This document shows positions 1,085-27,015 of a stretch of DNA of 27,015 bases, piece after piece. This DNA comes from a virus. Made by a program: the position numbers and the translations under genes. The DNA is taken from positions 1 through 27,015 of the IMG/VR virus record IMGVR_UViG_3300034062_001990. One strand, 5' to 3'. The notes under the pieces are model-generated. The model did no database searches, was not told the origin of the DNA, and worked only from the letters and a program-made list of their open reading frames with translations. Positions within the stretch are counted from its first letter, which is position 1. Each line of letters begins with the position of its first letter.

Positions 1085-1284
1085 CAGTAACTAGAGCGAG
1101 ATCATTTACTAAAGCACTTAGTTATCGCATATGGGGAACACTATCATCATTTGTTGTTGCTTATGTGATTACTGGAGACGCAACTCTATCAGGTGCTATT
1201 GCTTTTTGGGAGACAGTAGTTAAAGTCTTTATTTACTACGCACATGAGCGTGGGTGGAACCACATTCAGTGGGGTAGAAAATGA
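1081..1284 (+). CDS. DUF2061 family small membrane protein (copy 2)
   Basis: This is a tandem paralog of the previous gene with the same length, 67 residues. It has the basic start (RARSFTKALSYRIWG), two membrane helices and the closing YYAHERGWNHIQWG motif. It starts with GTG inside the previous stop (GTGA) and ends on the next ATG (ATGA), so translation of the three genes is coupled. The two copies differ at most positions outside the motifs, so the duplication is old, or both were acquired separately. A heterodimeric membrane complex is possible but not shown. Confidence 0.85.
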   Translation: MTVTRARSFTKALSYRIWGTLSSFVVAYVITGDATLSGAIAFWETVVKVFIYYAHERGWNHIQWGRK

Positions 1285-2033
1285 AATTTCATTGGATGGT
1301 CAAGAACAATCTTAATCCCAAAGATTTAAAAACCCTATCTAAGGTCATAGACTTTTATAAGTATGATTCTATGCTACTGACATTCCACTCAGACGAATCA
1401 GACTATTGGATTAAGGCTGCCCATGCAATTAATACTGAGGACAAGGTTAAGTATATGATTGCTATTAGGCCATATGCTATAACAGCAGCCTATTGCTCTA
1501 TGATGATAGACGCATTTAATGAGATTGAGCCAGGCAGAATATCTTTGAATATAATAGCTGGCACATATGACGATGATCAAGCATTGTTTTGTATCCCCAC
1601 TTCAATAGAAGACAGGAAGAAGCAAAGCGCTTTGTTTGTTGAAAGACTTAGAGCTGTAAATAAAAATTGCCCAGAGATATTCTTTAGCGGTTCATCTAAG
1701 GAAACTGCTGAAAGCGTAGCCAAGTTTGGAGATGGACAGATAGTCACCCTATCAAAATTTGATGAGCTTGGATCACAGGGCGGAAGAACGATAGTAAGAC
1801 TATCAGCTATTATAGATGACCACGCTAAGTTTATTTATGACGGCATGCCAAATGGCAAGGAAAAGAATAATACTATATTTGGTAATAAAGAAGAGATAAA
1901 GAATCAAATTAAACAGTTGGAAAATCAGGGTGTAACTGATATACTTATATCTAATACATCTTTTGGTAAGAATGATTCAGATATACACCAAGTTGTGCTA
2001 GAGATTTTAGGAGAAGATAGTGCCAGTTTATGA
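1281..2033 (+). CDS. luciferase-like flavin-dependent monooxygenase
   Basis: The 250-residue product resembles the luciferase-like monooxygenase superfamily, closest by eye to SsuD-type alkanesulfonate monooxygenases. Seen in order are a strand rich in MIAIRPY, then AFNEIEPGRISLNIIAG (SsuD has a similar LSNGRLLINVVTG), then IFFSGSSKETAESVAKFGD. The end has NTIFGNKEEIKNQIKQLENQG followed by VTDILIS, the standard C-terminal helix-strand of the family. SsuD is about 380 residues, so this is a compact form. SsuD needs reduced FMN and releases sulfite from organosulfonates. Position next to an APS kinase-like gene makes a sulfur role attractive, but substrate is not determined. ATG overlaps the previous stop; the 3' end overlaps the next gene by 14 bases. 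Confidence 0.75.
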   Translation: MKFHWMVKNNLNPKDLKTLSKVIDFYKYDSMLLTFHSDESDYWIKAAHAINTEDKVKYMIAIRPYAITAAYCSMMIDAFNEIEPGRISLNIIAGTYDDDQALFCIPTSIEDRKKQSALFVERLRAVNKNCPEIFFSGSSKETAESVAKFGDGQIVTLSKFDELGSQGGRTIVRLSAIIDDHAKFIYDGMPNGKEKNNTIFGNKEEIKNQIKQLENQGVTDILISNTSFGKNDSDIHQVVLEILGEDSASL

Positions 2034-5556: not shown

Positions 5557-5790
5557 GTGCTTCATTTAACAATGCAAGGCGTTGAGATATTTATAAATAG
5601 ATCTCAAACAAAAGTTCAAAAATCTTTTTGGGATAATTATGATTTAGTTATCTGGAAAAAAGATTACAACGGCTACTCAGATACAAGTGGCATGTTCCAT
5701 GATAATCAATGGGGTAAGGCAGAAAAAATTTCTGTCAACGGTAAAGGTATCTGGAAGCTGCCAAAAAAATATGTCAAGTATTTTAAGTAA
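5557..5790 (+). CDS. hypothetical protein downstream of the tRNA
   Basis: The frame stays open back into the tRNA, so a later start is needed. GTG 5557 is chosen because AGGAA (5547-5551) precedes it at good spacing; ATG 5572 is the alternative. The product is about 77 residues, with QKSFWDNYDLVIWKKD, an aromatic Gly/Asp-rich centre and a basic end (KGIWKLPKKYVKYFK). It overlaps the WhiB gene by 20 bases. No family recognised. Confidence 0.6.
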   Translation: MLHLTMQGVEIFINRSQTKVQKSFWDNYDLVIWKKDYNGYSDTSGMFHDNQWGKAEKISVNGKGIWKLPKKYVKYFK

Positions 5791-6082
5791 TCTAGGCATA
5801 GAAGAAGAAGATCCAAATTGGTATAAGCTTGCTTTATGCCTAGGTATGGACACAAATCTATTTTTTGATAAGTATGAGTCAGATATAAATATAGCTAGGA
5901 CAATTGATGAGGCATGTCTTTCTTGCCCAGTGATAGCTATATGTTATGAAAACGGAATTAATAATAATGACTATGGAGTATGGGGTGGAGTTTATTTAAA
6001 TTCTGGTTCTATAGACAAGGTCAGAAACTCACACAAAACAAAAGAAGTATGGAAAAGATTGAAGGCTAAACATGTTTATTGA
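5771..6082 (+). CDS. WhiB-like iron-sulfur transcriptional regulator
   Basis: From ATG 5771 the product has 103 residues and the four cysteines of the WhiB family: C23 (LALCLGMD), C49 and C52 (EACLSCPV) and C58 (IAIC). The family turn GVWGG follows at 69-73, with a basic C-terminal helix (KTKEVWKRLKAK). WhiB proteins bind a [4Fe-4S] cluster and act with the actinobacterial primary sigma factor; phage versions can repress host whiB genes. This is the best evidence for an actinobacterial host. A longer upstream extension is open but carries no family residues. No good Shine-Dalgarno is seen; translation is probably coupled to the overlapping gene upstream. Confidence 0.92.
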   Translation: MSSILSNLGIEEEDPNWYKLALCLGMDTNLFFDKYESDINIARTIDEACLSCPVIAICYENGINNNDYGVWGGVYLNSGSIDKVRNSHKTKEVWKRLKAKHVY

Positions 6083-7634: not shown

Positions 7635-8192
7635 ATGACATGTATAGTAGCAATAGCCCAAAATGGAACTGTATATATGGGTTCCGACCACGCCGCATCA
7701 GATGATAAAACTGGATGGATTCTGTCAAGAAAAGAACCTAAATGTTTTAAGACTGGTCAGTATGCAATTGCTTTTACTGATTCATTTCGTATGGGACAAA
7801 TTTTACAATACTCATGGACTCCACCAAAGTACACCCCAACCAAAACTAACTCAGGCTTAGATAAGTTCATGAGAACAAAGTTTATTGATTCAGTCAAACA
7901 GGCTTTTAAAGATCATGGATACGGAAGCATAGGATCAAGCTCAGAAGAAGACACAGGCGGAATTTTTATAGTAGGGCTAGAAGGTAGAATCTTTACTATA
8001 GATGAAGACTTTCATGTTGGAGAGAATGTTGTTAACTACATGGCTGAAGGCAGTGGTGGCCAGATTGCCCTTGGTGCTCTATATGCAACAAAGAATCAGA
8101 AGAACCCAAGAGTAAGAATTAAGGCTGCTCTTGAGGCGGCAGCAGAGTTTAATATGTCTGTTGCACCTCCCTTTACATACATACAAGTATAG
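7635..8192 (+). CDS. proteasome/HslV-like Ntn hydrolase
   Basis: The 185-residue protein begins MTCIVAIAQNG and YMGSDHAAS follows. After Met removal Thr1 would be the nucleophile, with D17 as in HslV and K35 (PKCF) two residues off HslV K33. Near the end EGSGGQIALGALYAT matches the conserved GSGG-x-x-A of proteasome beta, HslV and Anbu subunits. Length is close to HslV (about 175). It would be a cytoplasmic self-assembling threonine protease. No HslU-type ATPase is seen nearby, so it may use a host unfoldase, degrade peptides alone, or follow the Anbu model. The ATG is set by the promoter position and the Thr2 rule. Confidence 0.85.
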   Translation: MTCIVAIAQNGTVYMGSDHAASDDKTGWILSRKEPKCFKTGQYAIAFTDSFRMGQILQYSWTPPKYTPTKTNSGLDKFMRTKFIDSVKQAFKDHGYGSIGSSSEEDTGGIFIVGLEGRIFTIDEDFHVGENVVNYMAEGSGGQIALGALYATKNQKNPRVRIKAALEAAAEFNMSVAPPFTYIQV

Positions 8193-8200
8193 AGTATAAT
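8172..8200 (+). promoter_or_regulatory. leaderless-type promoter for 8207 gene
   Basis: TTTACA (8172-8177) and TATAAT (8195-8200) are 17 bp apart. ATG 8207 follows after exactly 6 bases. The promoter overlaps the end of the Ntn hydrolase gene. Confidence 0.75.
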
Positions 8201-8748: not shown

Positions 8749-9864
8749 ATGAATAAAAAACTAATAACAGCGCTATTGTCGCTAACACTAATCCTACCGC
8801 TATCAACAACTGTCTCACAGGCAGCACCAGCACCCACAATTGCTATTCTAGACACAGCACTAGACTCTACATTGCCAATCTTTAAAGATAAGATTGCTGC
8901 TGAAGTTTGTATTCTAGACTGGGCATCATGTCCAAACGGAAAAACATTTATGGAAGGCCCAGGAGCAGCTACACTTCAAATGCCTTATGTGTCTCAAAAT
9001 GGATTTGATCACGGAACACAGATGGCCTCAGTATTTATCAACAACAACCCAAACGCAAAGATTGTTTTTGTTAGAATTATTGGTAACACAGCAAAAGGCT
9101 CACGACAAACGGCTGGCGAGTCAACAGTATTTAATGCACTTAATTGGGTAAATGCAAATAAGGAAAAGTATAACATTCAAGCTGTGACCATGTCACAAGG
9201 TCATCACATGCTTGGTGCTGTTGGAACAAACTATTGCCCAGCAACACCAACGACAAGATCATCAATCAACTCTCTATTGGCAAGCGGAATTCCAGTATTC
9301 TTTCCTTCTGGTAATGGCAGAGACTATCAGAGAATTGACTGGCCATCTTGTATTCCAGAATCAATTTCAGTTGGATACACAGACCAACAGGGCGAAATGG
9401 CAGCTAACAGCAACAACGATAACGCACTCCTAGATTTATTTGCACTAGGATATCACGCTGCTTGGTCACCAGGAAATATTCAAAAGTATATTGCTGGATC
9501 ATCTGCTTCTGTTCAAGTTGCTGCTGCATATTGGATGCTCATCAAAGAAAAGAATCCTTCTTGGACATACTCTCAGGTATTAAATGCAATGACATCAACT
9601 GCTTCAAGCACAACTGGTCGTCAAGGAACATTTAATAAACTTATTAATCTCCAAGCAGCAATTTCTTATACAGGAAAGCCTGTAGTTACATCAACACCTA
9701 CTGTAACAGCAGAACAGTTGGCTGCACAACAAAAGGCTTTGTTAATTGCTGAGTCATTGAAAGCGATTGCATTAGCAGAGTCACAGTACCAAGCAGAAGT
9801 TAAGGCTGCAGCAGATAAGCTAGCAGCAACAAAAGCAGCATGGGCGGCAAAAATTAATGGATGA
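8749..9864 (+). CDS. secreted subtilisin-like serine protease (S8)
   Basis: The product has 371 residues. Residues 1-26 are a signal peptide (MNKKLITALLSLTLILPL, cleaved after SQAA). The S8 triad is present in order: D35 (AILDTALD), H88 (GFDHGTQMAS) and S252 (AGSSAS). N189 (PSGNG) forms the oxyanion hole. Cysteines at 54/61 and 163/201 could form disulfides. No propeptide is seen, which is unusual because most secreted subtilisins need one to fold. The catalytic part ends near 300; a helical Ala/Lys/Glu-rich tail resembles the end of the 11112 protein. The role is probably digestion or processing of surface proteins during entry or release. Regulation is by a leaderless-type promoter. Confidence 0.9.
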   Translation: MNKKLITALLSLTLILPLSTTVSQAAPAPTIAILDTALDSTLPIFKDKIAAEVCILDWASCPNGKTFMEGPGAATLQMPYVSQNGFDHGTQMASVFINNNPNAKIVFVRIIGNTAKGSRQTAGESTVFNALNWVNANKEKYNIQAVTMSQGHHMLGAVGTNYCPATPTTRSSINSLLASGIPVFFPSGNGRDYQRIDWPSCIPESISVGYTDQQGEMAANSNNDNALLDLFALGYHAAWSPGNIQKYIAGSSASVQVAAAYWMLIKEKNPSWTYSQVLNAMTSTASSTTGRQGTFNKLINLQAAISYTGKPVVTSTPTVTAEQLAAQQKALLIAESLKAIALAESQYQAEVKAAADKLAATKAAWAAKING

Positions 9865-10112: not shown

Positions 10113-10583
10113 ATGCAAACATTTCTACCAGAGGCGGACTTTCAAGAAACTGCAAAGCATCTTGATAGAAAGCGATTAATTAAACAAAGCGTTGAAAATT
10201 TACAGATTCTAAAGTCACTTGCTGGACTATATGAAACTGGAGCTTGGTCTAACCACCCAGCAGTCAAAATGTGGAGGGGACATGAAGATTGGTTGTTCCT
10301 TTACAATGAAGCCATTGTTCGAGATATAATCCTACGTGGGTATAAGAATACAACTCACGCCTTGTTCGATGAGATATATAAAGAAAACTTTCTGGGATTA
10401 GAGTCAGATAGACCTTGGTGGCTAGGAGAAGACCAGGTTCATTATACTCATAAGGGAAGATTGTTTGAAAAGGATCCTATTCACTACTACTTCTATAGTG
10501 AGTATGCAGATTATAAAGAGATTGGTTATACCTGTTGTGAAAATTGCAATTACTATTGGCCTACACACGTGGACTCGCTATGA
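10113..10583 (+). CDS. MSMEG_6728-like (Pyr_excise-type) protein
   Basis: The 156-residue protein begins MQTFLPEADFQETAKHLDRK, then RLIKQSVENLQILKSL and WSNHPAVKMWRGHEDWL. This matches the MSMEG_6728 family of actinobacteria, which is annotated as related to T4 endonuclease V, the pyrimidine-dimer glycosylase. A DNA-repair role is therefore plausible, but the catalytic residues of T4 endonuclease V were not confirmed here. The C-terminal tail has CCENC, a possible metal site. The stop overlaps thioredoxin (ATGA). Confidence 0.8.
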   Translation: MQTFLPEADFQETAKHLDRKRLIKQSVENLQILKSLAGLYETGAWSNHPAVKMWRGHEDWLFLYNEAIVRDIILRGYKNTTHALFDEIYKENFLGLESDRPWWLGEDQVHYTHKGRLFEKDPIHYYFYSEYADYKEIGYTCCENCNYYWPTHVDSL

Positions 10584-14153: not shown

Positions 14154-15044
14154 ATGTCAGATACAAAGGTAGTTAGTCAACTAGGCGGTAAGCTTTTAGG
14201 TGGCGGAGGAACAGGAATTTGGTCATACGAAAACTTTCTTTCTAAGGAAGAGTGCGATGAGCTAATTAAATTCTTCAATGCCAACGAAGAAGAGTGGAGA
14301 TTTATCTGCTTTTATGGATCATATGGAATGCATGTTGTTTCTCCATTTACTAAGGAGCATGGAACAACAATAACTGAAGAGTACATGGCTAATCTTCGTG
14401 AAAGAATGATTCAGTATGTTTCAGATGCTGCTGGAAGACCAATGAAAATTAACAGTATGCATGCCCAGAAATGGGAGCTAGGTGCATACGCAAATGATCA
14501 CTCAGACAGCTCAGATCTAGAAGGTAATGACATGGGCTGGAGCGACAATAAGCAATACGCTGGCATTTATCTAAACTCACAACCAGATTACACTGGTGGT
14601 GTTTTAAAGTTTAGAGATCATGGATTAGAAGTAGTCCCAGAAGCTGGCTCATTTGTATCCTTCCCAGGAGGAGTAGAAAACATTCATAGCGTTACAGAAA
14701 TAACAAGTGGTACTAGATACACTATTGTTATTTTTTGGGATTACGCAGATGCATGGTACTCAGAAGCAGAATTGCAAGAAATGGAAAGAATGATTCTAAA
14801 AGAAAGAATTCATCAATATCAATTAAAAACACAATGGAAGGATGGCGTTGCCCACCCTTTACTAGAAGATCCATACGCTGGAGTTGACGATGAGTCTAAG
14901 CTACCACCTGGATTTAAAGAGAGCTTGACTACAGCAGACATTAAGTCTAATGCACGTAGAAACCAAGAAAATGCAGTAAAAGAAGGTCGTGTGCCAGAGG
15001 GCGTAATTAACGACATGATCATTAAGGAAGAGGAAGAAAAATGA
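14154..15044 (+). CDS. prolyl-4-hydroxylase-type 2OG-Fe(II) oxygenase
   Basis: The 296-residue protein starts at ATG 14154 with AAAGGAG upstream. The catalytic domain spans about 20-205. Facial triad H116-x-D118 (YANDHSDSS) and H178 (ENIHSVTEI) and 2-oxoglutarate-binding R188 (SGTRYTIVIF) are in place; GGVLKFRDHG and PEAGSFVSFPGG fit P4H. Such enzymes hydroxylate proline or other residues in proteins. The C-terminal 90 residues are helical and charged (ERMILKERIHQYQLKTQW, EEEEK), which is not part of the usual fold and may bind a partner. The stop overlaps the next gene (ATGA). Confidence 0.88.
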   Translation: MSDTKVVSQLGGKLLGGGGTGIWSYENFLSKEECDELIKFFNANEEEWRFICFYGSYGMHVVSPFTKEHGTTITEEYMANLRERMIQYVSDAAGRPMKINSMHAQKWELGAYANDHSDSSDLEGNDMGWSDNKQYAGIYLNSQPDYTGGVLKFRDHGLEVVPEAGSFVSFPGGVENIHSVTEITSGTRYTIVIFWDYADAWYSEAELQEMERMILKERIHQYQLKTQWKDGVAHPLLEDPYAGVDDESKLPPGFKESLTTADIKSNARRNQENAVKEGRVPEGVINDMIIKEEEEK

Positions 15045-16232: not shown

Positions 16233-16797
16233 AGCAGAAGAAAACTTTAACTTTAAGTTTAAAGGAAGATTTAATATTGATTCTATAATTGATATAGTTT
16301 CTAAATTTGAGTCTGAGTGGCTGATAGACACCACCAGACAGAATAATAAATACCCAGATAGAAAGAACCCACATTCTTTTACTCATTCATATTTAATTAA
16401 TTCCTGTTCAATTGAATGGAATTATGGAGAGCCTTTCACCACATACAGATCAAGTTCCAATGAAGATTTATGGAAAGAGATTGACCCAATAATTAAGGGC
16501 CTAGAGTACTCTTGCGATGGAGTACTAGCCAGAGCCTTGCTGGTAAAGCTTTCAGAAGAAAGCGACATAGACCCACACTCAGACAGTGGAGATTACCTTG
16601 GCTTAGTTAGAAGGCATCATATTCCTATTGTAACAAATGATAGAGTCTATTTTAGTGTAGGTGGGGAAAGAAAGCATCTAAGAGCTGGTGAGTGCTGGGA
16701 GATCAATAACAATAGAGTGCACTCTGTAGAAAATAGGGGCGGAGAAAGAATACACTTAATTATAGACATAATGCCAAGAGAAGCTGTTAATGAGTAA
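16219..16797 (+). CDS. aspartyl/asparaginyl beta-hydroxylase-like oxygenase
   Basis: The 192-residue protein matches the Asp/Asn beta-hydroxylase family. Its core runs VLARALLVKLSEESDIDPHS to RRHHIPIVTND, then WEINNNRVHSVENRGGERIH. Fe ligands are H120-x-D122 and H168; R177 would bind 2-oxoglutarate. Vertebrate members hydroxylate EGF-like domains, and bacterial ones modify peptides or lipids. It shares a tightly overlapping unit with a sulfotransferase and a glycosyltransferase. Confidence 0.88.
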   Translation: MILNKAEENFNFKFKGRFNIDSIIDIVSKFESEWLIDTTRQNNKYPDRKNPHSFTHSYLINSCSIEWNYGEPFTTYRSSSNEDLWKEIDPIIKGLEYSCDGVLARALLVKLSEESDIDPHSDSGDYLGLVRRHHIPIVTNDRVYFSVGGERKHLRAGECWEINNNRVHSVENRGGERIHLIIDIMPREAVNE

Positions 16798-17506
16798 AAT
16801 CCCAAAGATAATTTGGCAGACATGCTTATCAGATTATAATGATTTACCAGAGTACGTTAAGGTTTGTTCTGACAGTTGGAAAAACAATAATGAGGGCTGG
16901 GAATATAGGTATCTAACCCACGAAGATTGCTACAAGATGATACTAGATAACTATGATCAGGACATGGCAGACATATATCTTAAGATAGATCATCCACAGA
17001 TTAAGGCAGATTTTTGGAGATACTTATCTATATATAAGTTTGGTGGAGTTTACATAGATATAGATGTCATATCATTTAGTAATATAGATTCTTTTTTACC
17101 ACAAGATAAAGATGCATTCTTTATTCCAATCAAAAATCCAATAGCAGATAGAAAAACAGAATATGCAATGTGGTTTTTTGGTTGTAGTCCAGAAAACCCA
17201 ATACTAAAAGAGGTTATAGAATTAATGATTTCTAAATTAAAGTCTCTTGATTCATATAGCATAGCCTCTGATCAAGAAACAGGATGGCCAGTATGGAACG
17301 CAGCAATAGATAAATTTGTAGACGAAGAATGGTTTTATGTTCTAAATGACATAGAAGCACCAATGCTTCATTACGGGGCTAACTCAAAATGGACGGACAA
17401 CTATATAACAAGAAGACCAATGGAAACATTCTATTGGGATATGGGATCATCTCTTGATATAAAGGTAAGCAATAAAGCTTATTCTAGTTTAAAGGTGCAC
17501 AAATAA
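16790..17506 (+). CDS. GT32-type glycosyltransferase
   Basis: The 238-residue protein begins IPKIIWQTCLSD, typical of OCH1/capsular GT32 enzymes. The sugar-nucleotide DXD motif is D90-I-D92 in ADFWRYLSIYKFGGVYIDID. The family transfers a sugar from a nucleotide donor to polysaccharide or protein. The predicted location is cytoplasmic. Donor and acceptor are not deducible. It overlaps both neighbours by 1-8 bases. With the sulfotransferase and hydroxylase it could build hydroxylated, glycosylated and sulfated groups. Confidence 0.87.
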   Translation: MSKIPKIIWQTCLSDYNDLPEYVKVCSDSWKNNNEGWEYRYLTHEDCYKMILDNYDQDMADIYLKIDHPQIKADFWRYLSIYKFGGVYIDIDVISFSNIDSFLPQDKDAFFIPIKNPIADRKTEYAMWFFGCSPENPILKEVIELMISKLKSLDSYSIASDQETGWPVWNAAIDKFVDEEWFYVLNDIEAPMLHYGANSKWTDNYITRRPMETFYWDMGSSLDIKVSNKAYSSLKVHK

Positions 17507-20493: not shown

Positions 20494-20655
20494 TTGTCTA
20501 AGCATTGGGAAGATAAGTCCCAATGGATCACGCATTGCCCTATATGCTTTTGTTCAGTTACATATCAATTATATGACTTTCATTTACAATATCATCAAAA
20601 TTTGACCCCAATTAGTGAAATCGGCGGCGGTAGAGAGGGTATTGTCAGTACCTGA
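20494..20655 (+). CDS. 53-residue C2H2-like finger protein, TTG start
   Basis: The frame is open from TTG 20494, directly after the previous stop, to TGA 20653-20655, with AAGGGA about 12 bases upstream. CPIC-FCSVTYQLYDF-HLQYH gives C-x2-C-x11-H-x3-H, close to a classical zinc finger. Its last third is encoded by the duplicated regulatory element. The TTG start lowers confidence. Confidence 0.5.
   Translation: MSKHWEDKSQWITHCPICFCSVTYQLYDFHLQYHQNLTPISEIGGGREGIVST
20609..20655 (+). promoter_or_regulatory. duplicated regulatory element, copy 2
   Basis: CAATTAGTG (20609-20617), GCGGCGGTAGAGA (20624-20636) and TATTGTCAGTACCTGACA (20640-20657) repeat copy 1. Here the palindrome is TGTCAG-TAC-CTGACA, six bases per arm. 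It covers the -35. Confidence 0.7.
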
Positions 20656-20670
20656 CATAAATGATATAAT
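20642..20670 (+). promoter_or_regulatory. leaderless-type promoter for 20677 gene
   Basis: TTGTCA (20642-20647) and TATAAT (20665-20670) are 17 bp apart. ATG 20677 follows after exactly 6 bases. Confidence 0.8.
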
Positions 20671-21569: not shown

Positions 21570-21570
21570 A

Positions 21571-21587
21571 GCTCTATAAAATAGAGC
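21571..21587 (+). terminator. short hairpin after last plus-strand gene
   Basis: GCTCTA (21571-21576) pairs with TAGAGC (21582-21587) around TAAAA, 1 base after the stop. Weak alone; acts perhaps with the next hairpin. Confidence 0.5.
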
Positions 21588-21637
21588 GATATGGTCTCTA
21601 ACTCCTATATCCCCCTCCCATTTATCTCCTCTCTATC

Positions 21638-21658
21638 AGCCTCCTAGAGGCTTTATAT
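21638..21658 (+). terminator. terminator hairpin AGCCTC-CTA-GAGGCT
   Basis: Six perfect base pairs (21638-21643 with 21647-21652), loop CTA, followed by TTATAT. This is the likely terminator for the plus-strand genes. Confidence 0.6.
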
Positions 21659-21686
21659 GTGGAGTAAAGTGGAGTATTGTGGAGTA
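21659..21686. repeat. three GTGGAGTA repeats at 10-bp period
   Basis: Exact copies begin at 21659, 21669 and 21679, separated by 2-base spacers. The helical phasing suggests cooperative protein binding. Confidence 0.8.
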
Positions 21687-21790
21687 ATATGGTTATAGAT
21701 AAGTCGACAATTACTACAGATATATATGTATTTAGATATACATGTAATGGGACATGACCCTATCATATAGATGCCGTAATGTCAATCATT

Positions 21791-21863
21791 TTGTCGACAT
21801 TTGTATATGCATGCAAATTTCAGGGATTTTGTCAATGCCCTCGTAAAAGGCATATTTTGCCCA
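21791..21863. repeat. intergenic repeat unit R1
   Basis: TTGTCGACATTT (21791-21802), then AATTTCAGG (21816-21824), 16 bp, then TCGTAAAAGG (21841-21850) and TTTTGCCCACA. R2 has the same order and the same 16-bp spacing. Confidence 0.8.
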
Positions 21864-21953
21864 CATTGTCAATAGATTTCATAGAAAAATTTTGACAGAT
21901 TTTGGCTAATTCTGCACACATTTGTTTAAATAGTTATATGATTCTATATAGAT

Positions 21954-22020
21954 TTGTCGACATTTATATACAATTTCAGGCGTATTTTTTAGCTCGTCGT
22001 AAAAGGGAATTTTTGCCCAC
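21954..22020. repeat. intergenic repeat unit R2
   Basis: TTGTCGACATTT (21954-21965), AATTTCAGG (21972-21980), 16 bp, TCGTAAAAGG (21997-22006) and TTTTGCCCAC. Sequence between the conserved blocks is diverged. Confidence 0.8.
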
Positions 22021-22041
22021 AAGCCCACACATTTTGATCAC

Positions 22042-22070
22042 AAAAAAAATCCACATCCGAAGATGTGGAT
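22042..22070 (-). terminator. TTCG-loop terminator with T run
   Basis: On the minus strand ATCCACATC-TTCG-GATGTGGAT is a 9-bp perfect stem with the extra-stable UUCG loop. It is followed by seven to eight T (A run at 22042-22049). It closes the minus-strand unit 20 bases past the stop of 22090-22506. Confidence 0.95.
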
Positions 22071-22089
22071 CTAATTTGTGGAACATTGG

Positions 22090-22506
22090 CTAGAAGAACG
22101 GGTGTTCAATTCTAACTGATTCTGGTTCATTGTTATTATCTAACCAGGAATACCTGTAGTTCCTATTTATATCTTTTAGTTCTACTTTTGGTAGCCCCGC
22201 CGATATCTCAGATAGAGTTCTAGGTAGTTTGAGAGTCTTGAACTGATATGTTTCTTTAATTGCTTCTATGGCATAGGCTAACTCAGTTGCTAGATACAAT
22301 CCGTCTGATGTTTTACCAGCAACTTTTTCTTGTTGCGCCCTCCGTGCAATATGAGTAATGATTTCAGTAATCATTTCCATTGTGCGGTCAGTTGTGTAGT
22401 ATGGTTGCTCAGATAGATAACGACCTACCTGTGCAGGATTGAAGTATGCTTGCTCAATTAGATTAACTAATGATTCCATTACTTTGTCTGTTGGTGTCTT
22501 GCTCAT
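22090..22506 (-). CDS. hypothetical helical protein
   Basis: The 138-residue product (MSKTPTDKVMESLVNLIEQA first) is largely helical, with MEMITEIITHIARRAQQEKV and a proline/charged end. No family recognised. The ATG at 22506 has AGGCGG about 5 bases upstream. It has its own promoter and a strong terminator. Confidence 0.75.
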   Translation of the reverse strand: MSKTPTDKVMESLVNLIEQAYFNPAQVGRYLSEQPYYTTDRTMEMITEIITHIARRAQQEKVAGKTSDGLYLATELAYAIEAIKETYQFKTLKLPRTLSEISAGLPKVELKDINRNYRYSWLDNNNEPESVRIEHPFF

Positions 22507-22529
22507 AGTCCGCCTCTCGTCAATCTTAC

Positions 22530-22558
22530 ATTATACCAAAATGAAGCGAGGCTGGCAA
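22530..22558 (-). promoter_or_regulatory. promoter for 22090-22506
   Basis: On the minus strand TTGCCA (22558-22553) and TG-G-TATAAT (22538-22530) are 17 bp apart. The -35 lies in the arm of the preceding hairpin. Confidence 0.75.
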
Positions 22559-22588
22559 TGCCCACGGATCCCACCGCTATTGCCAGCC
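22550..22588 (-). terminator. hairpin after the 49-residue gene
   Basis: GGCTGGCAAT (22550-22559) pairs with ATTGCCAGCC (22579-22588) around a 19-base loop. It follows the stop of the 22599-22748 gene. There is no T run. Confidence 0.65.
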
Positions 22589-22598
22589 CCACAGTTAG

Positions 22599-22748
22599 TT
22601 ACTTAGCCTTTGATACAGGCTTTTCTGCAGTGAAGGTAATGCCCTTCTGTACTGCCTCTTGCAAAGCTACCTTGGCTGCTCCTGAGAAACGTCCTCGTGC
22701 TCCAACTGTAATGCCCTGCTGCTTTAGATATTCACGCTTTGTTGTCAT
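22599..22748 (-). CDS. 49-residue basic protein
   Basis: The frame runs ATG 22748 to TAA 22599-22601 on the minus strand. The peptide MTTKREYLKQQGITVGARGR, then FSGAAKVALQEAVQKGITF, ends EKPVSKAK. The GARGRFS segment and short helix resemble Lsr2-type DNA-binding ends, but this is weak. It has its own -35/-10, a GAAAGGA leader and a hairpin after it, so it is a self-contained unit. Confidence 0.75.
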   Translation of the reverse strand: MTTKREYLKQQGITVGARGRFSGAAKVALQEAVQKGITFTAEKPVSKAK

Positions 22749-22783
22749 TTGATTTATCCTTTCGAGATAATTGATTTGTATTA

Positions 22784-22812
22784 ATTATAGCAACTTTTCA
22801 CGGATTTGTAAA
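22784..22812 (-). promoter_or_regulatory. promoter for the 49-residue protein
   Basis: On the minus strand TTTACA (22812-22807) and TG-C-TATAAT (-10 at 22789-22784) are 17 bp apart. The leader of about 35 nt contains CGAAAGGATAAA before the ATG. Confidence 0.8.
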
Positions 22813-22840
22813 TAGTCACCGTAAGCCTTTTTTCTTGCCC

Positions 22841-22981
22841 TTATACTAAATTGGTCTGTTCAACTCTATCTTTAATTAATCTAGCAATGATGTTATGGGC
22901 CTCAATGTTTTCTGTTTCTGACCCACCCCACAAAAGCTTTTGTGCTGTATTTAATTGATCATTGATGTATTCATCAGTCAT
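22841..22981 (-). CDS. 46-residue hypothetical protein
   Basis: The frame runs ATG 22981 to TAA 22841-22843. The peptide is MTDEYINDQLNTAQKLLWGG, then a helix SETENIEAHNIIARLIKDRV. It overlaps the previous minus gene by 8 bases. No family recognised. Confidence 0.6.
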   Translation of the reverse strand: MTDEYINDQLNTAQKLLWGGSETENIEAHNIIARLIKDRVEQTNLV

Positions 22982-23291
22982 CTTCATCTTCGTCTTCTTC
23001 CTCTTCTTCAAACATTGTATCTACAATGTATTCACGATTTAACATCCATTCAAGGACGTCTTCTTGGTGCTGTTCCGCCCCGTACTCCAGTGAGAAGCCC
23101 ATTCCAGCCTCCACAGCCTCACAGAGGTTGTCCCACATTTGATCGATAGTAACCTTCTGCTTGTAACTTTCATCCTCAAAGATGTTATTGATTGTGCTCC
23201 AGGTCCATAGCCAAACCAGGGACAGGCCAAGGTCAGTGCTATCTAGAATCTCTAGACATTTGTTTAGTTTATCTTTGTCATCGGGTTTCAT
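22974..23291 (-). CDS. hypothetical protein with acidic tail
   Basis: ATG 23291 was chosen because GGAG lies 7 bases upstream; a longer frame is open but would overlap the previous gene by 44 bases. The product, 105 residues, is helical and Trp-rich (LGLSLVWLWTWSTINNIFED) and ends in a run of Glu/Asp (EEEEEDEDEDD). Such tails occur in DNA mimics, but nothing else supports that. Confidence 0.65.
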   Translation of the reverse strand: MKPDDKDKLNKCLEILDSTDLGLSLVWLWTWSTINNIFEDESYKQKVTIDQMWDNLCEAVEAGMGFSLEYGAEQHQEDVLEWMLNREYIVDTMFEEEEEDEDEDD

Positions 23292-23547
23292 TACGTGCTC
23301 CAATCGCAAATGATAGGTCATATGTTAATTGATATAGTTCTACTAATGCGTCAAGATGTCCTTCAAGGGTTAATCTATCAACAGTTTGGTCGTACTCTTC
23401 ATCATCCTGATTTGTATATTCAGATAGTAATTGCTCGTCAATGAGCATTAGATTCTTTAGTTCTCCATGTAGAATATCAAGGCCTGATACTCCCGCATTA
23501 ACCATGCGCTGTAAATGGGGCGGGAGCCCAATGTCTTCTGCATTCAT
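23278..23547 (-). CDS. hypothetical acidic helical protein
   Basis: The 89-residue product starts MNAEDIGLPPHLQRMVNAGV and is helical and acidic (EYTNQDDEEYDQTVDRL). AAAGGAT lies upstream of ATG 23547, and the unit's own promoter is inside the end of the previous gene. No family recognised. Confidence 0.7.
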   Translation of the reverse strand: MNAEDIGLPPHLQRMVNAGVSGLDILHGELKNLMLIDEQLLSEYTNQDDEEYDQTVDRLTLEGHLDALVELYQLTYDLSFAIGARNETR

Positions 23548-23548
23548 T

Positions 23549-23788
23549 TTATATCCTTTCGCTTGTAGCCATTATATCAAGAGCCACTGACAATAAATGA
23601 TTGGTAGCAATCCATTGTCCATTTAAAGATATGTGCTCTATCTCTAATGCCTGGTACTCATTAGATTCCATTTCCTCATATGCATCCATTTCCTCTTGGA
23701 TAGCATCAGCATCTTGCTGCAAACTAATTAGATGCAGTTTCATATATTCAATAAACTGAGATGATCGAGTTACATATGCAGATTCCAT
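23549..23788 (-). CDS. hypothetical helical protein carrying a promoter in its end
   Basis: The 79-residue product is a helical, acidic protein (LHLISLQQDADAIQEEMDAY). Its last residues NHLLSVALDIMATSERI are encoded by the TTGTCAGTGG promoter of the next gene. The start overlaps the previous stop (TAATG). Confidence 0.7.
   Translation of the reverse strand: MESAYVTRSSQFIEYMKLHLISLQQDADAIQEEMDAYEEMESNEYQALEIEHISLNGQWIATNHLLSVALDIMATSERI
23571..23593 (-). promoter_or_regulatory. TTGTCAGTGG-type promoter d
   Basis: On the minus strand TTGTCAGTGG (23593-23584), 7 bases, then TATAAT (23576-23571) with TG-A before it. There is no -35 at 17 bp. A GAAAGGATATAAA leader precedes ATG 23547. Confidence 0.8.
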
Positions 23789-23946
23789 TAGTCAAAATAC
23801 CCTTCTGCCCAAAGTCCATCTAAGAAATCAGAAGCTTTTGCTAAGTCTCTGACAATTGCTGGATGTTCATTCTCTCCGAGAATTAATACAGCAGAATCAA
23901 TTGCATATCGCATATCATTTAAATCTGACTCTTCATAGCCTAGCAT
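23788..23946 (-). CDS. 52-residue hypothetical protein
   Basis: The frame runs ATG 23946 to TAA 23788-23790. The peptide is MLGYEESDLNDMRYAIDSAV, then LILGENEHPAIVRDLAKASD. It is coupled to both neighbours (TAATG). No family recognised. Confidence 0.6.
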   Translation of the reverse strand: MLGYEESDLNDMRYAIDSAVLILGENEHPAIVRDLAKASDFLDGLWAEGYFD

Positions 23947-24095
23947 TATTTCTCCTCATCCCACCAGTATTTGGTAATTAGTTCTAATGAAGAATGGATA
24001 TTGCAATCACAATCTCCACCCATGTTTTCCATAAAATCTATATGAGAGAAGTTGTCCTCATATATTTCATTGACTAGTTCATCAATAGTTCTCAT
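23946..24095 (-). CDS. 49-residue hypothetical protein
   Basis: The frame runs ATG 24095 to TAA 23946-23948. The peptide has a short CDC motif with histidine (GGDCDCNIHSSLELITKYWW). ATGA and TAATG couple it to its neighbours. No family recognised. Confidence 0.6.
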   Translation of the reverse strand: MRTIDELVNEIYEDNFSHIDFMENMGGDCDCNIHSSLELITKYWWDEEK

Positions 24096-24865
24096 ACTTC
24101 CGCCTTTTCTCTAGATTCCAATAGTACCATGTGGGTCTGACATTCTTTCATAGCCTCTTCATCTTGCCAAGAACCTTGGCTACATTCAGAGCAGAATTCA
24201 CCACAGTCATCTTCGCAATAAGATAATGTATCAAAAGATTGGCAAGCATAGCAACGATTCTCATATTCTAGAATCTCTTTGACATTACCACGGACAATCT
24301 CATATTCCCCACCCCAACCTGTTTCTTCCTCATACTCTAATGTAAGCAGGCAGTTAGGAACAAGATTAGATAGTTTAGTTAAGATAGTTACAGCAGGTGA
24401 CCAAGCAGTCTCATACTTATAGACAACCCAGTTGTCATCACCCTCTGATTTATATTCAAGCAATTCTGTATTTGGATACTTGTCATCATCTGATACGGCA
24501 ACATCCCATTTGGTTCCCCAGTTAGTATTGTTCCATGAGTACCAATCTTTTTGAGTCTTGGCATGTGCTACTTCTTGTGCAAACCAATTAGGGTCTTTGA
24601 TATCTGCACCTGAACGTGTAGGCTGGCAGGCATATTCCTCATCAGTAATACCGTCATCTTTATATGAGTGGATATTATAGAAAGCAAAGACAGGATTATT
24701 ATATTCAACCTGCTTAATTTTGGTGGGGAAACCCATAGATGAAATATCACCCATACCATAAGTCTCTTGTGCTAATACAAATGGCTTATTCAATCTATCT
24801 TTAATCATATCTACCTCAGACTTAGGTCCTTGGATAGTTAATGTGTTATATACCCAGTTTGGCAT
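24092..24865 (-). CDS. Api92-like protein with C-terminal Cys cluster
   Basis: From ATG 24865 the 257-residue protein begins MPNWVYNTLTIQGPKSEVDM, as in Api92-like ferredoxin-fold proteins of phages and plasmids. NWGTKWDVAV and the RCLLTLEY-type middle also fit that family. The last 55 residues add a Cys-rich zinc-like segment (CYACQ, then CEDDCGEFCSEC). Function of the family is unknown. Start ATG 24865 is set by AAAGGA 6 bases upstream and the promoter; the frame is open further by chance. Confidence 0.75.
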   Translation of the reverse strand: MPNWVYNTLTIQGPKSEVDMIKDRLNKPFVLAQETYGMGDISSMGFPTKIKQVEYNNPVFAFYNIHSYKDDGITDEEYACQPTRSGADIKDPNWFAQEVAHAKTQKDWYSWNNTNWGTKWDVAVSDDDKYPNTELLEYKSEGDDNWVVYKYETAWSPAVTILTKLSNLVPNCLLTLEYEEETGWGGEYEIVRGNVKEILEYENRCYACQSFDTLSYCEDDCGEFCSECSQGSWQDEEAMKECQTHMVLLESREKAEV

Positions 24866-24893
24866 ATTATATCCTTTCGTTTGATATATGAGA

Positions 24894-24916
24894 ATTATAC
24901 ACTGGACCACTGACAA
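24894..24916 (-). promoter_or_regulatory. TTGTCAGTGG-type promoter c
   Basis: On the minus strand TTGTCAGTGG (24916-24907), 7 bases, then TATAAT (24899-24894). A CGAAAGGATATAA leader follows to ATG 24865. Confidence 0.8.
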
Positions 24917-24977
24917 ATGGAATACTATTTGGGTGTGTTCCACACCACATTTTGTATGCATGTGGTCAAGATCACAG

Positions 24978-25009
24978 AATTTCAGGCGATTTTAAATTGA
25001 CCTCGTAAA
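24978..25009. repeat. intergenic repeat unit R3
   Basis: AATTTCAGG (24978-24986), exactly 16 bases, TCGTAAA (25003-25009), as in R1 and R2. It shares a TTTGTATGCATG-like upstream part with R1. It lies alone in the 298-base gap 24866-25163, which otherwise shows a TATAAT on the minus strand (25067-25062) and no gene. Confidence 0.75.
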
Positions 25010-25144
25010 CAAAATATGTTACCCTTATGTTTTTGCGGGCCAGATCATGATTTGTCAAGCTATTATATAGGCTGCTAGAGTATCACCAACGAAAGTAAAA
25101 GAACTCTGCTTTATTTAACCCCTGGCCATTTAATGACTGATAGA

Positions 25145-25160
25145 GGCACCATATGGTTCC
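25145..25160 (-). terminator. imperfect hairpin after 25164-25562
   Basis: A near-palindrome (GGCACCATATGGTTCC) lies 4 bases past the stop of the minus gene. No T run follows; weak. Confidence 0.35.
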
Positions 25161-25163
25161 GTG

Positions 25164-25562
25164 TTACTTAGAAAGCACCAAGGAATATTTATTTACAAAT
25201 GCATCCAGTGTTTGTGAAAACATTGGTTCATCTGACATGCCATGGACCTTTGTGCTTTCATCATAGGATGCTTCCTCATGAAGACTAAAGGTCCCACTGC
25301 GCCAATCGATTACAGGAATCTTGTGCTCATTGTCAGGAATTGTATTAATATAAATTCCCCAACCAGTTGTCGACTCCCAGTCTTGGCCCACGAGTTGAGA
25401 AATAGCAATACGTGTTGCATATCCCTCATCGGTCCAGCGAGGACGTGCCGCATCAACAGCGCTTGCTAATTGTGCTAGCATCTCATGTCCAGCCCAGTGA
25501 CCGTACAAAACAATAACATCGCCATTGCTCTGTCTAAATCCGAAGTTTGCTCTATCTCCCAT
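25164..25562 (-). CDS. conserved phage hypothetical (MGDRANFGF)
   Basis: The 132-residue product begins MGDRANFGFRQSNGDVIVLY and has GHWAGHEMLAQLASAV. This start is common to a family of phage hypotheticals in actinophages and other tailed phages, with unknown function. AGAGGCGGAA precedes ATG 25562, which overlaps the previous stop. Confidence 0.8.
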   Translation of the reverse strand: MGDRANFGFRQSNGDVIVLYGHWAGHEMLAQLASAVDAARPRWTDEGYATRIAISQLVGQDWESTTGWGIYINTIPDNEHKIPVIDWRSGTFSLHEEASYDESTKVHGMSDEPMFSQTLDAFVNKYSLVLSK

Positions 25563-25756
25563 TATATTTCCGCCTCTTCTAGTAGTAGTACTTCTTCGAC
25601 CTTGTCTAATTCTATCATTTCATATGAGACCTTGGCAAGGCCCGCCTCATATTTATTTTTATGGTGACCACAGAAATATAGTTCGCCTTCAACTAATTTA
25701 ATTATCCATTTAGCTTGGGCTGAATCTCCACACTTATCGCATGCAATCCAACTCAT
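25562..25756 (-). CDS. DUF7455-like zinc protein
   Basis: The 64-residue protein has CDKCG (C6, C9) and CGHH near 29-32 in GELYFCGHHKNKYEAGL, the pattern of the actinobacterial DUF7455 family. It is a small zinc ribbon. Function unknown. Starts in the previous stop (ATGA). Confidence 0.8.
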   Translation of the reverse strand: MSWIACDKCGDSAQAKWIIKLVEGELYFCGHHKNKYEAGLAKVSYEMIELDKVEEVLLLEEAEI

Positions 25757-25899
25757 ATCTCGTTACCTTCGATCATGTCTGCTAACTTATCAACTAGCCA
25801 AGCATCGATATCTGAGATATCAATCTCTCTTAGTTTTTCGATTAGTTCTTCACGACCAAATTTGTAACCGTCATCAAAGCCATCTCTGTAGTCTGACAT
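25753..25899 (-). CDS. 48-residue acidic helical protein
   Basis: The frame runs ATG 25899 to TGA 25753-25755. The peptide is MSDYRDGFDDGYKFGREELI, then EKLREIDISDIDAWLVDKLA. GGGAGA precedes the start. No family recognised. Confidence 0.7.
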   Translation of the reverse strand: MSDYRDGFDDGYKFGREELIEKLREIDISDIDAWLVDKLADMIEGNEI

Positions 25900-25900
25900 A

Positions 25901-26113
25901 TTATCTCCCTGTGTATCCTGTTGGCTCGTAGTCTGATGTGTATGATTCTATTAGATTATACTTATCACGAATACGACTTACCTTCTCAATACTACCAGTT
26001 CCGATATTGAAAGTCAATGGTGCAATTGTCATTGGGTCCAACCCAATCAACTCCGCTTCCCAGGTAGCCCGTGCAAAGGCTACCTGAGATGGAGCAGTAA
26101 GTTCAAAATACAT
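25901..26113 (-). CDS. hypothetical protein
   Basis: The 70-residue product MYFELTAPSQVAFARATWEA has a helix and a short strand end (DYEPTGYTGR). It starts in the previous stop (TAATG). No family recognised. Confidence 0.65.
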   Translation of the reverse strand: MYFELTAPSQVAFARATWEAELIGLDPMTIAPLTFNIGTGSIEKVSRIRDKYNLIESYTSDYEPTGYTGR

Positions 26114-26574
26114 TATGCTTCCCTCACATAACAGATTTCAGTATCGCCAATCTCAATGTTGCCACTCTGTGAATCAACATAAAGATTATCTGTGATTTCT
26201 GTTTCGAAGTCATAGTCTTCAAGTAAGTTAAGGTCAATTGTTCCACTAACCTCAATGGTTGCAGTGAATTCAACTGTTCGAGTCAATTCAATGTTAAGCG
26301 CTTCTGCGATTGAACGCAAGGTGTCTTGGTCATCTGAATCAGCATAAACTTCGCTAATAATATCTTTAACTGTGTTAATGTTAGACTCAAGAAGACCGAC
26401 ACGCTTTTGTGATTGACGTCCATTGTGTAGGTCCCACTCAAGACTGGTAACCTTTGATGTTGTAAATTCAGGGTCAGAGTAACCCTTGATTACTTTGTAT
26501 GTAACTAGTAAATCAGGATTGTATTCTACTGCAGGTGAGTGGAATGCATCTGAGCCAATTGTTGTTGTTTCCAT
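26113..26574 (-). CDS. probable internal gene with its own promoter and start
   Basis: Within the 26113-26778 frame, ATG 26574 has GAGG at good spacing and the TTGTCAGTGG-type promoter b upstream. The product would be the last 153 residues (METTTIGSDAFHS first), a beta-rich and acidic end (TATIEVSGTIDLNLLEDYDF). It may be the true second gene; the longer frame may simply lack a stop between them. Confidence 0.6.
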   Translation of the reverse strand: METTTIGSDAFHSPAVEYNPDLLVTYKVIKGYSDPEFTTSKVTSLEWDLHNGRQSQKRVGLLESNINTVKDIISEVYADSDDQDTLRSIAEALNIELTRTVEFTATIEVSGTIDLNLLEDYDFETEITDNLYVDSQSGNIEIGDTEICYVREA

Positions 26575-26778
26575 GGTTTCCTCTTTCGTTTGGTTTGAAG
26601 GTGCAATTGTAGCATGCTCCACTGACAATAAGGTAGTCTTACGGCCACATGGACATGTGAGTTCCATCACACCAGATGGGAATCCAAATCCATCTGAGGA
26701 TGTTAATTCAATTAATGAGTCGCATTCATCTGGGTCACAGACAAATGTATATTTACTTGATATGAGTTCGTTGGTCAT
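26113..26778 (-). CDS. fused hypothetical: zinc-ribbon head plus beta-rich tail
   Basis: The 221-residue frame has a Cys head (C14, C19, C42, C44; FGFPSGVMELTCPCGRK) and a tail from residue 69. The head resembles a common actinophage zinc microprotein. The linker (about 48-68) is the sequence of promoter b. It may be one protein or two; see the internal start. The start overlaps the upstream stop (ATGA). Confidence 0.65.
   Translation of the reverse strand: MTNELISSKYTFVCDPDECDSLIELTSSDGFGFPSGVMELTCPCGRKTTLLSVEHATIAPSNQTKEETMETTTIGSDAFHSPAVEYNPDLLVTYKVIKGYSDPEFTTSKVTSLEWDLHNGRQSQKRVGLLESNINTVKDIISEVYADSDDQDTLRSIAEALNIELTRTVEFTATIEVSGTIDLNLLEDYDFETEITDNLYVDSQSGNIEIGDTEICYVREA
26606..26628 (-). 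promoter_or_regulatory. TTGTCAGTGG-type promoter b
   Basis: On the minus strand TTGTCAGTGG (26628-26619), 7 bases, TG-C-TACAAT (-10 at 26611-26606). An AAACGAAAGAGGAAACC leader precedes ATG 26574. It lies inside a coding frame. Confidence 0.75.
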
Positions 26779-27015
26779 ATGGCTAGTATATCAGAGGCCA
26801 CTGACATTTTGGATTGCCATAGGGAACAGTTAGAATCAAGGCGGGAGCCAAAGACTCTAATGTAATCTGATATATCCTCAGTCTTATTAGTAAGGCAAGA
26901 CTTAACAGTATCTACTGAGATAAATACACGTCCATTCCATAGGCCCATTTGTCCAATATTAGTAGGGACTTCCAAGCAACCATATGTATCTTGTTCCCAA
27001 CCAACACCTTCTGAA
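26775..27015 (-). CDS. hypothetical protein, 5' end beyond the window
   Basis: The frame is open through the right edge and ends TGA 26775-26777. The visible 79 residues include NIGQMGLWNGRVFISVDTVK and end KMSVASDILAI, encoded by promoter a. No family recognised; a start inside the window (TTG 26975) is possible but not needed. Confidence 0.6.
   Translation of the reverse strand, partial: SEGVGWEQDTYGCLEVPTNIGQMGLWNGRVFISVDTVKSCLTNKTEDISDYIRVFGSRLDSNCSLWQSKMSVASDILAI
26785..26807 (-). promoter_or_regulatory. TTGTCAGTGG-type promoter a
   Basis: On the minus strand ATGTCAGTGG (26807-26798), 7 bases, TG-A-TATACT (-10 at 26790-26785). ATG 26778 follows after exactly 6 bases, as on the plus strand. 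It lies inside the end of the upstream gene. Confidence 0.75.

Follow-up and report, generated by a model that had tools for sequence, protein, structure and literature searches.

Phage promoters in a low-GC virus group that resemble the PafBC-dependent RecA-NDp promoters of Actinobacteria

The IMG/VR virus record IMGVR_UViG_3300034062_001990, a stretch of 27,015 bases which was analysed over its full length and is called the window here, carries four promoter-like sites on its minus strand, in each of which a box with the core TGTCAG stands at a fixed distance before the -10 element. A sequence-only reading of this DNA had taken these sites for a new promoter class that depends on an activator made by the phage. 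This raises the question what kind of promoter this is and whose protein may read it. By those sequence features which can be tested, the promoters belong to a kind that is already known, the RecA-NDp promoters, which depend on PafBC. We consider it likely that all four are such promoters, used by the RNA polymerase of the host together with the host's own PafBC.

Four sites and the RecA-NDp consensus

The pattern WTGTCAGTGG-N7-TAYAMT matches the window four times without any mismatch and always on the minus strand (Table 1), while 2.0 x 10^-4 exact matches are expected on both strands under a first-order Markov model. When up to three mismatches were allowed, the next-best match was a single one, with three mismatches. 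Thus, the number of sites and the 7-nt spacing described before are exact. The window holds four copies of TGTCAGTGG (none on the plus, four on the minus strand), which are the four sites themselves, all at the 7-nt spacing, so the motif is not equally frequent away from -10 boxes. The best match to TTGACA located 16-18 nt upstream reaches 1, 3, 1 and 3 of 6 positions for sites 1, 2, 3 and 4, respectively. Among 318 non-redundant sites from the window and 119 related loci no conserved hexamer was found at the -35 position either, in agreement with the earlier claim. The leader CGAAAG follows three of the four window sites, with CGAAAGGATATAA after two of them, as had been noticed; it also follows 180 of the 318 non-redundant sites and looks like a ribosome-binding leader.

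The sites differ in their position relative to genes. Site 1 overlaps the 3' end of an open reading frame (ORF, 23788-23549) and is followed after 23 nt by an ATG at 23547. Site 2 lies within the gap preceding the ATG at 24865, at a distance of 28 nt. Site 3 is found inside ORF 26778-26113, 31 nt from an in-frame ATG at 26574 which has its own CGAAAG leader. Site 4 is leaderless, with its ATG (26778) 6 nt past the -10, and overlaps the 3' end of an ORF entering from 27014. Sites 4 and 3 are about 180 nt apart, the second being located inside the gene that is begun by the first and followed by the in-frame ATG. In relatives with such pairs of sites, both starts were in one open frame in 43 out of 53 pairs examined. 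Perhaps the paired sites yield two protein forms from nested promoters.

The consensus of RecA-NDp is tTGTCRgtg - 8 nt - TannnT and resembles the mycobacterial recA P1 promoter (PMC5656591); such promoters occur beyond mycobacteria (PMC8223512) and are described for Streptomyces (PMC5087735). The likeness to the phage sites comprises the TGTCR core (R being A or G) followed by GTG, a distance of 8 nt between GTG and the -10 (7 nt if counted from GTGG), the TAnnnT form of the -10 and a dispensable -35. The TGTCR core, the gtg after it (lower case in the consensus and, hence, less strict) and the 8 nt from gtg to a TAnnnT -10 were each found in four out of four window sites, and none of these has a canonical -35. 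Therefore, the label of a new promoter class cannot be kept, as the sites agree with RecA-NDp of Actinobacteria in the core, the purine wobble, the spacing and the -10. Unlike RecA-NDp as given in these sources, the phage sites are present in several copies per genome ahead of mostly orphan phage genes, have a -10 near TATAAT, often with TG before it, and include a TGTCAG-ACCC form beside the TGG form.

PafBC works with the housekeeping RNA polymerase by sigma adaptation and is triggered by single-stranded DNA (ssDNA); in mycobacteria PafB recognises a -26 motif and PafC contacts sigma domain 4 (PMC11804915). At the phage sites, the TATAAT box would be used by the host polymerase carrying the housekeeping sigma factor; sigma would not touch a -35, and PafBC, the DNA-damage activator of the host, bound to TGTCRGTG as the -26 element, would bridge to sigma domain 4. 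The ssDNA arising from DNA damage or from infection would then activate PafBC and thereby turn on the block, whose phage genes are mostly small. We infer here that the host possesses PafBC, that this protein recognises the sites and that the block is expressed early.

Specificity of the pattern and the phage group that carries it

The A form TTGTCAGTGG-N7-TATAAT was found in at least 119 IMG/VR stretches and the G form in at least 120, compared with 7 stretches when the spacing was longer by one, 20 when the core was permuted and 55 for both pyrimidine forms combined, all in complete control scans. Thus, the R of the host consensus is a purine in the phage sites as well, and the spacing is fixed. 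In the 119 A-form loci, the GC content of which ranges from 0.34 to 0.46 with a median of 0.39, 326 out of 346 non-seed TGTCRGTG cores have a TAnnnT at the exact offset of 16. Strict sites number 476 in these loci (1,123,295 bases, seeds included) against one in the 27 control loci with altered spacing or permuted core (252,542 bases).

As the records were chosen through the motif, its presence itself is no evidence; what counts is how many sites a record has, on which strand they lie and how often the reversed pattern occurs. In 50 whole records (49 of the A-form loci plus the window) there were 255 sites and none for the reversed pattern, with both strands used in three records. A second, overlapping set of 28 whole records, mostly longer ones picked from these 50 and from 44 records which had been selected by hand from 80 listed G-form rows, gave 185 sites under a wider pattern against two for the reversed one, and both strands were used in four records. 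The loci are not independent of each other, since shared proteins join 276 out of 328 motif-bearing loci into a single group.

Relaxing the core to TGTCAG at the same offset yielded 319 TG-type sites in the related loci, 180 of an NCC type (ACCC, TCCC or like in place of TGG) and 53 others. Among the matches listed in a scan with TGTCAGACCC-N6-TATAAT there are new loci which hold both forms; here both strands were used in 12 out of 89, more than in the other groups. In the loci of this ACCC scan 339 of 817 non-seed cores were at offset 16, versus 4 of 230 in the 55 pyrimidine-control loci. Conservation is also seen at single genes: upstream of homologues of the gene behind site 2 (32-100% identical), TGTCRG-N10-TAnnnT is kept in 76 of 87 distinct regions, 58 of which read TGTCRGTG.

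The arrangement is seen over a longer distance in a relative of 114,966 bases (G011), the frames of which were taken from a mechanical list. All eight strict sites of G011 are on the plus strand between 16.7 and 25.7 kb, among small, mostly orphan open frames, and elsewhere its long frames run almost without exception on the minus strand, opposite to the site block. Six weaker matrix matches at 14.8-23.8 kb are noted because they share this strand and region; only one of the six exceeds the best of five shuffles (15.6). Promoter-like places on the other strand number 113; of these, 10 contain a TTGACA-like hexamer (5 or 6 of 6), six of them with an ATG 6 nt past the -10, and none of the 113 has TGTCAG. 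The minus-strand block of the window (22,090-27,015) is the counterpart of the G011 site block and contains two ordinary promoters as well. The window gene at 22,506-22,090 has a G011 homologue, 37% identical, which is preceded not by an ordinary promoter but by a TGTCAGTG site that overlaps a 5-of-6 match to the -35. A weak fifth candidate in the window keeps the spacing, but its matrix score of 5.1 is below the 13.9 attained by one of five shuffles. A site is present at a similar position in G011 (23757); the gene behind it does not align with the one behind the candidate.

The sites mark one large low-GC phage group, which is distantly related to the Streptomyces Stanwilliamsviridae. Among the matches listed, the G011 portal is 53-60% identical to that of Streptomyces Stanwilliamsviridae phages; the capsid maturation protease is about 45% identical to that of Stanwilliamsviridae, and the relatives of both proteins are Streptomyces and Rhodococcus phages. 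Portal and protease of the Stanwilliamsviridae are thus related, but none of their six searched genomes has a strict site. Compared with named phages the window block gave no blastn match and its DUF1281 protein no tblastn match. WhiB is a marker of actinobacteria and their phages. It was found in 21 of the 50 and 20 of the 44 motif-bearing records (41 of 94) versus one of 50 control records, and in records of at least 80 kb in 18 of 20 versus 0 of 11; of 14 control genomes, that of Corynebacterium glutamicum alone contains WhiB. Judged by these sequences, the virus probably infects actinobacteria. A host among the Nanopelagicales was considered for the low GC content and WhiB, but nothing here shows it, and among the matches listed in the literature on freshwater Actinobacteria there was no mention of PafB.

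Whose protein reads the sites

A WYL (PafBC-like) protein was found in none of the 50 and none of the 44 phage records, many of them fragments, whereas the same search was positive in 7 of the 14 control genomes. For these partly fragmentary records a phage-encoded PafBC was therefore rejected, and the activator is probably that of the host. Judged by its layout the block may be early, in which case the activator would have to come from the host. A phage sigma factor also appears less likely, as sigma-70 region 2 occurs in 0 of the 28 records, which may be fragments, and region 4 in 11 of them only below the cut-off. The block proteins tested against Pfam bear the names DUF1281_C, DUF7455 and DUF932 and include no regulator and no activator gene. 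Thus, what stands of the activator proposed in the sequence-only reading is its type, that is, a fixed element in place of the missing -35, presumably with the host RNA polymerase. Its origin from the phage has become less likely, with neither WYL nor sigma-70 region 2 found in the records searched.

The comparison with MotA drawn in that reading holds for function only. In T4 middle promoters, which consist of a MotA box and a -10 and are served by MotA/AsiA, a fixed element replaces the -35 and the activator works with the host sigma factor, as is proposed here; the MotA box is located about 12 nt before the -10. Box sequence and spacing are unlike those of the phage sites, and a MotA-like system was set aside for this. 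MotA itself was found in 0 of 28 records, and the 14 control genomes likewise gave nothing, so that this search had no positive control.

An activator encoded by the phage but not of the WYL family might read TGTCAG and recruit the host polymerase, MotA-like in function, in which case the likeness to RecA-NDp would be copied or convergent and the block a middle one. The TGTCAG-ACCC form outside the published consensus would fit such a protein, as would the finding that the exact strong form was not seen in hosts, and there are candidates, since the phages carry WhiB and 11 of 28 records a small helix-turn-helix (HTH) protein below the Pfam cut-off. We regard this as unlikely, because core, purine wobble, spacing and -10 all equal the cellular promoter, which makes convergence improbable, because the WhiB and HTH genes would themselves first need a promoter, and because no activator gene was seen among the block proteins tested. 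Rather improbable is that the sites are extended -10 promoters (TGN preceding TATAAT) which need no factor but sigma, with TGTCAG serving as operator for a repressor of phage or host. TG two bases before the -10 is indeed common (T 0.55, G 0.66), as in extended -10 promoters, and 12 of the 119 loci contain a palindrome, TGTCAG-TAC-CTGACA, that shares bases with a -35-like TTGTCA. However, extended -10 promoters do not need an upstream element at a fixed distance, and repressor operators tolerate several positions, whereas here there is one exact distance and the -35 is mostly missing. That the motif is nothing but a by-product of coding, an (L/M)-S-V tail common to overlapping genes, we hold to be very improbable. 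The core does read TTG/ATG-TCA-GTG in one frame at all four window sites, and this frame makes up 92 of the 104 covering frames found for TG-type sites, a bias for which TAA in TATAAT, closing one other frame, may account in part. But 215 of the 319 TG-type sites are without a covering ORF by the rule used, and any base at R would give serine in that frame, yet pyrimidines are at background level.

Several observations weigh against host PafBC as the reader. Three of 12 TGTCAG-type promoters in G011 also have a 5-of-6 match to TTGACA, and CCC frequently replaces TGG (180 versus 319), which is outside the published consensus. The strict site was found in none of 11 named actinophages, including the six Stanwilliamsviridae, and in none of two other named phages (T4 and SPO1); as it occurs in one group and in none of the named phages, it is a trait of that large, little-known group and not of actinophages at large. 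A search with the stricter pattern TTGTCAGTGG-N5-TG-N-TATAAT in a genome collection gave four matches, none of them actinobacterial, where chance would give about seven at equal base frequencies, which implies that the exact strong form is absent from hosts. Furthermore, the small HTH protein with a sub-threshold match to sigma region 4 recurs in 11 of 28 records, missing genes prove little in virus records that may be fragments, and there is no repair gene among the downstream genes shown.

Neighbouring genes and the meaning of the arrays

The features of the window and one of G011 are compiled in Table 1.

Table 1. Promoter sites, genes and further features with their positions (window unless G011 is stated)
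Feature	Position	Strand	Details
Site 1	23571..23593	-	TTGTCAGTGG (23593-23584), 7 nt, -10 TATAAT (23576-23571)
Site 2	24894..24916	-	TTGTCAGTGG (24916-24907), 7 nt, -10 TATAAT (24899-24894)
Site 3	26606..26628	-	TTGTCAGTGG (26628-26619), 7 nt, -10 TACAAT (26611-26606)
Site 4	26785..26807	-	ATGTCAGTGG (26807-26798), 7 nt, -10 TATACT (26790-26785)
Weak fifth candidate	24121..24142	-	TGTCAGACCC, 6 nt, TACTAT; ATG at 24095, 25 nt on
Gene behind site 1	23278..23547	-	89 aa; PHROG: no match
Gene behind site 2	24092..24865	-	257 aa; DUF1281_C (Api92-like), Pfam E 1.2e-7
Gene behind sites 4 and 3	26113..26778	-	221 aa (shorter if from 26574); Pfam, PHROG: no match
Ordinary promoter	22784..22812	-	TTTACA-17-TATAAT; ATG at 22748 downstream
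Ordinary promoter	22530..22558	-	TTGCCA-17-TATAAT; ATG at 22506 downstream
WhiB-family protein	5687..6082	+	Pfam PF02467, E 2.8e-10; match at 5819-5992
Luciferase-like monooxygenase	1281-2033	+	profile match
185-aa protein	7635-8192		89% identical in G011; no Pfam match; by eye like Ntn hydrolases
Subtilase	8749-9864	+	profile match
Pyrimidine dimer DNA glycosylase (UV-repair gene)	10113-10583		Pfam E 6.9e-21
2OG-Fe(II) oxygenase	14154-15044	+	profile match
Sugar transferase	16790-17506	+	profile match
Short frame with weak sigma region 4-like helix-turn-helix	G011 58990-59130		below Pfam cut-off; similar places in 10 other records

The ordinary promoters on the plus strand of the window are often leaderless, with an ATG 6 nt past the -10 (for instance, -10 at 8195, 8737, 17997, 19568 and 20665), and several of the leaderless ordinary promoters, on the plus strand in the window and on the minus strand in G011, have a TTGACA-like -35. 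The palindrome TGTCAG-TAC-CTGACA (or its reverse complement) is located at 20643-20657 in the window and at 27602-27616 in G011, its TTGTCA -35 standing ahead of a leaderless gene; TGTCAG is what it has in common with the promoters studied here. The region 21570-22095 of the window is a gap between converging gene sets and carries repeats. The copies of an 18-nt repeat with TTTGTCGACATTT are 94% alike and 163 apart, and those of a 50-nt repeat are 74% alike and 156 apart; there are also three tandem units of 10 nt.

Taken together with the RecA-NDp consensus, the arrays suggest that a set of viral genes is controlled through the DNA-damage alarm of the host. More tentatively, a large low-GC actinophage group may have wired a whole block of genes, probably for host takeover, to the ssDNA-sensing PafBC of the host. 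The ssDNA would come from infection itself or from earlier damage to the cell, so that the alarm would become the start signal and the ACCC form a PafBC site tuned by the phage. What seems to be new is the use of RecA-NDp-type promoters in arrays by a large phage group; among the titles and abstracts listed in the literature searches, no report of the use of a RecA-NDp/PafBC promoter by a phage was found. For a large actinophage group known almost only from metagenomes, this provides a testable control input, consisting of PafBC, ssDNA and DNA damage, and if the proposal is true, a host without pafBC would fail to switch on the block. With often several near-consensus copies in one genome, the phage sites may also serve as a large natural set for studying recognition by PafBC, in which both the A/G wobble and the ACCC form are represented.

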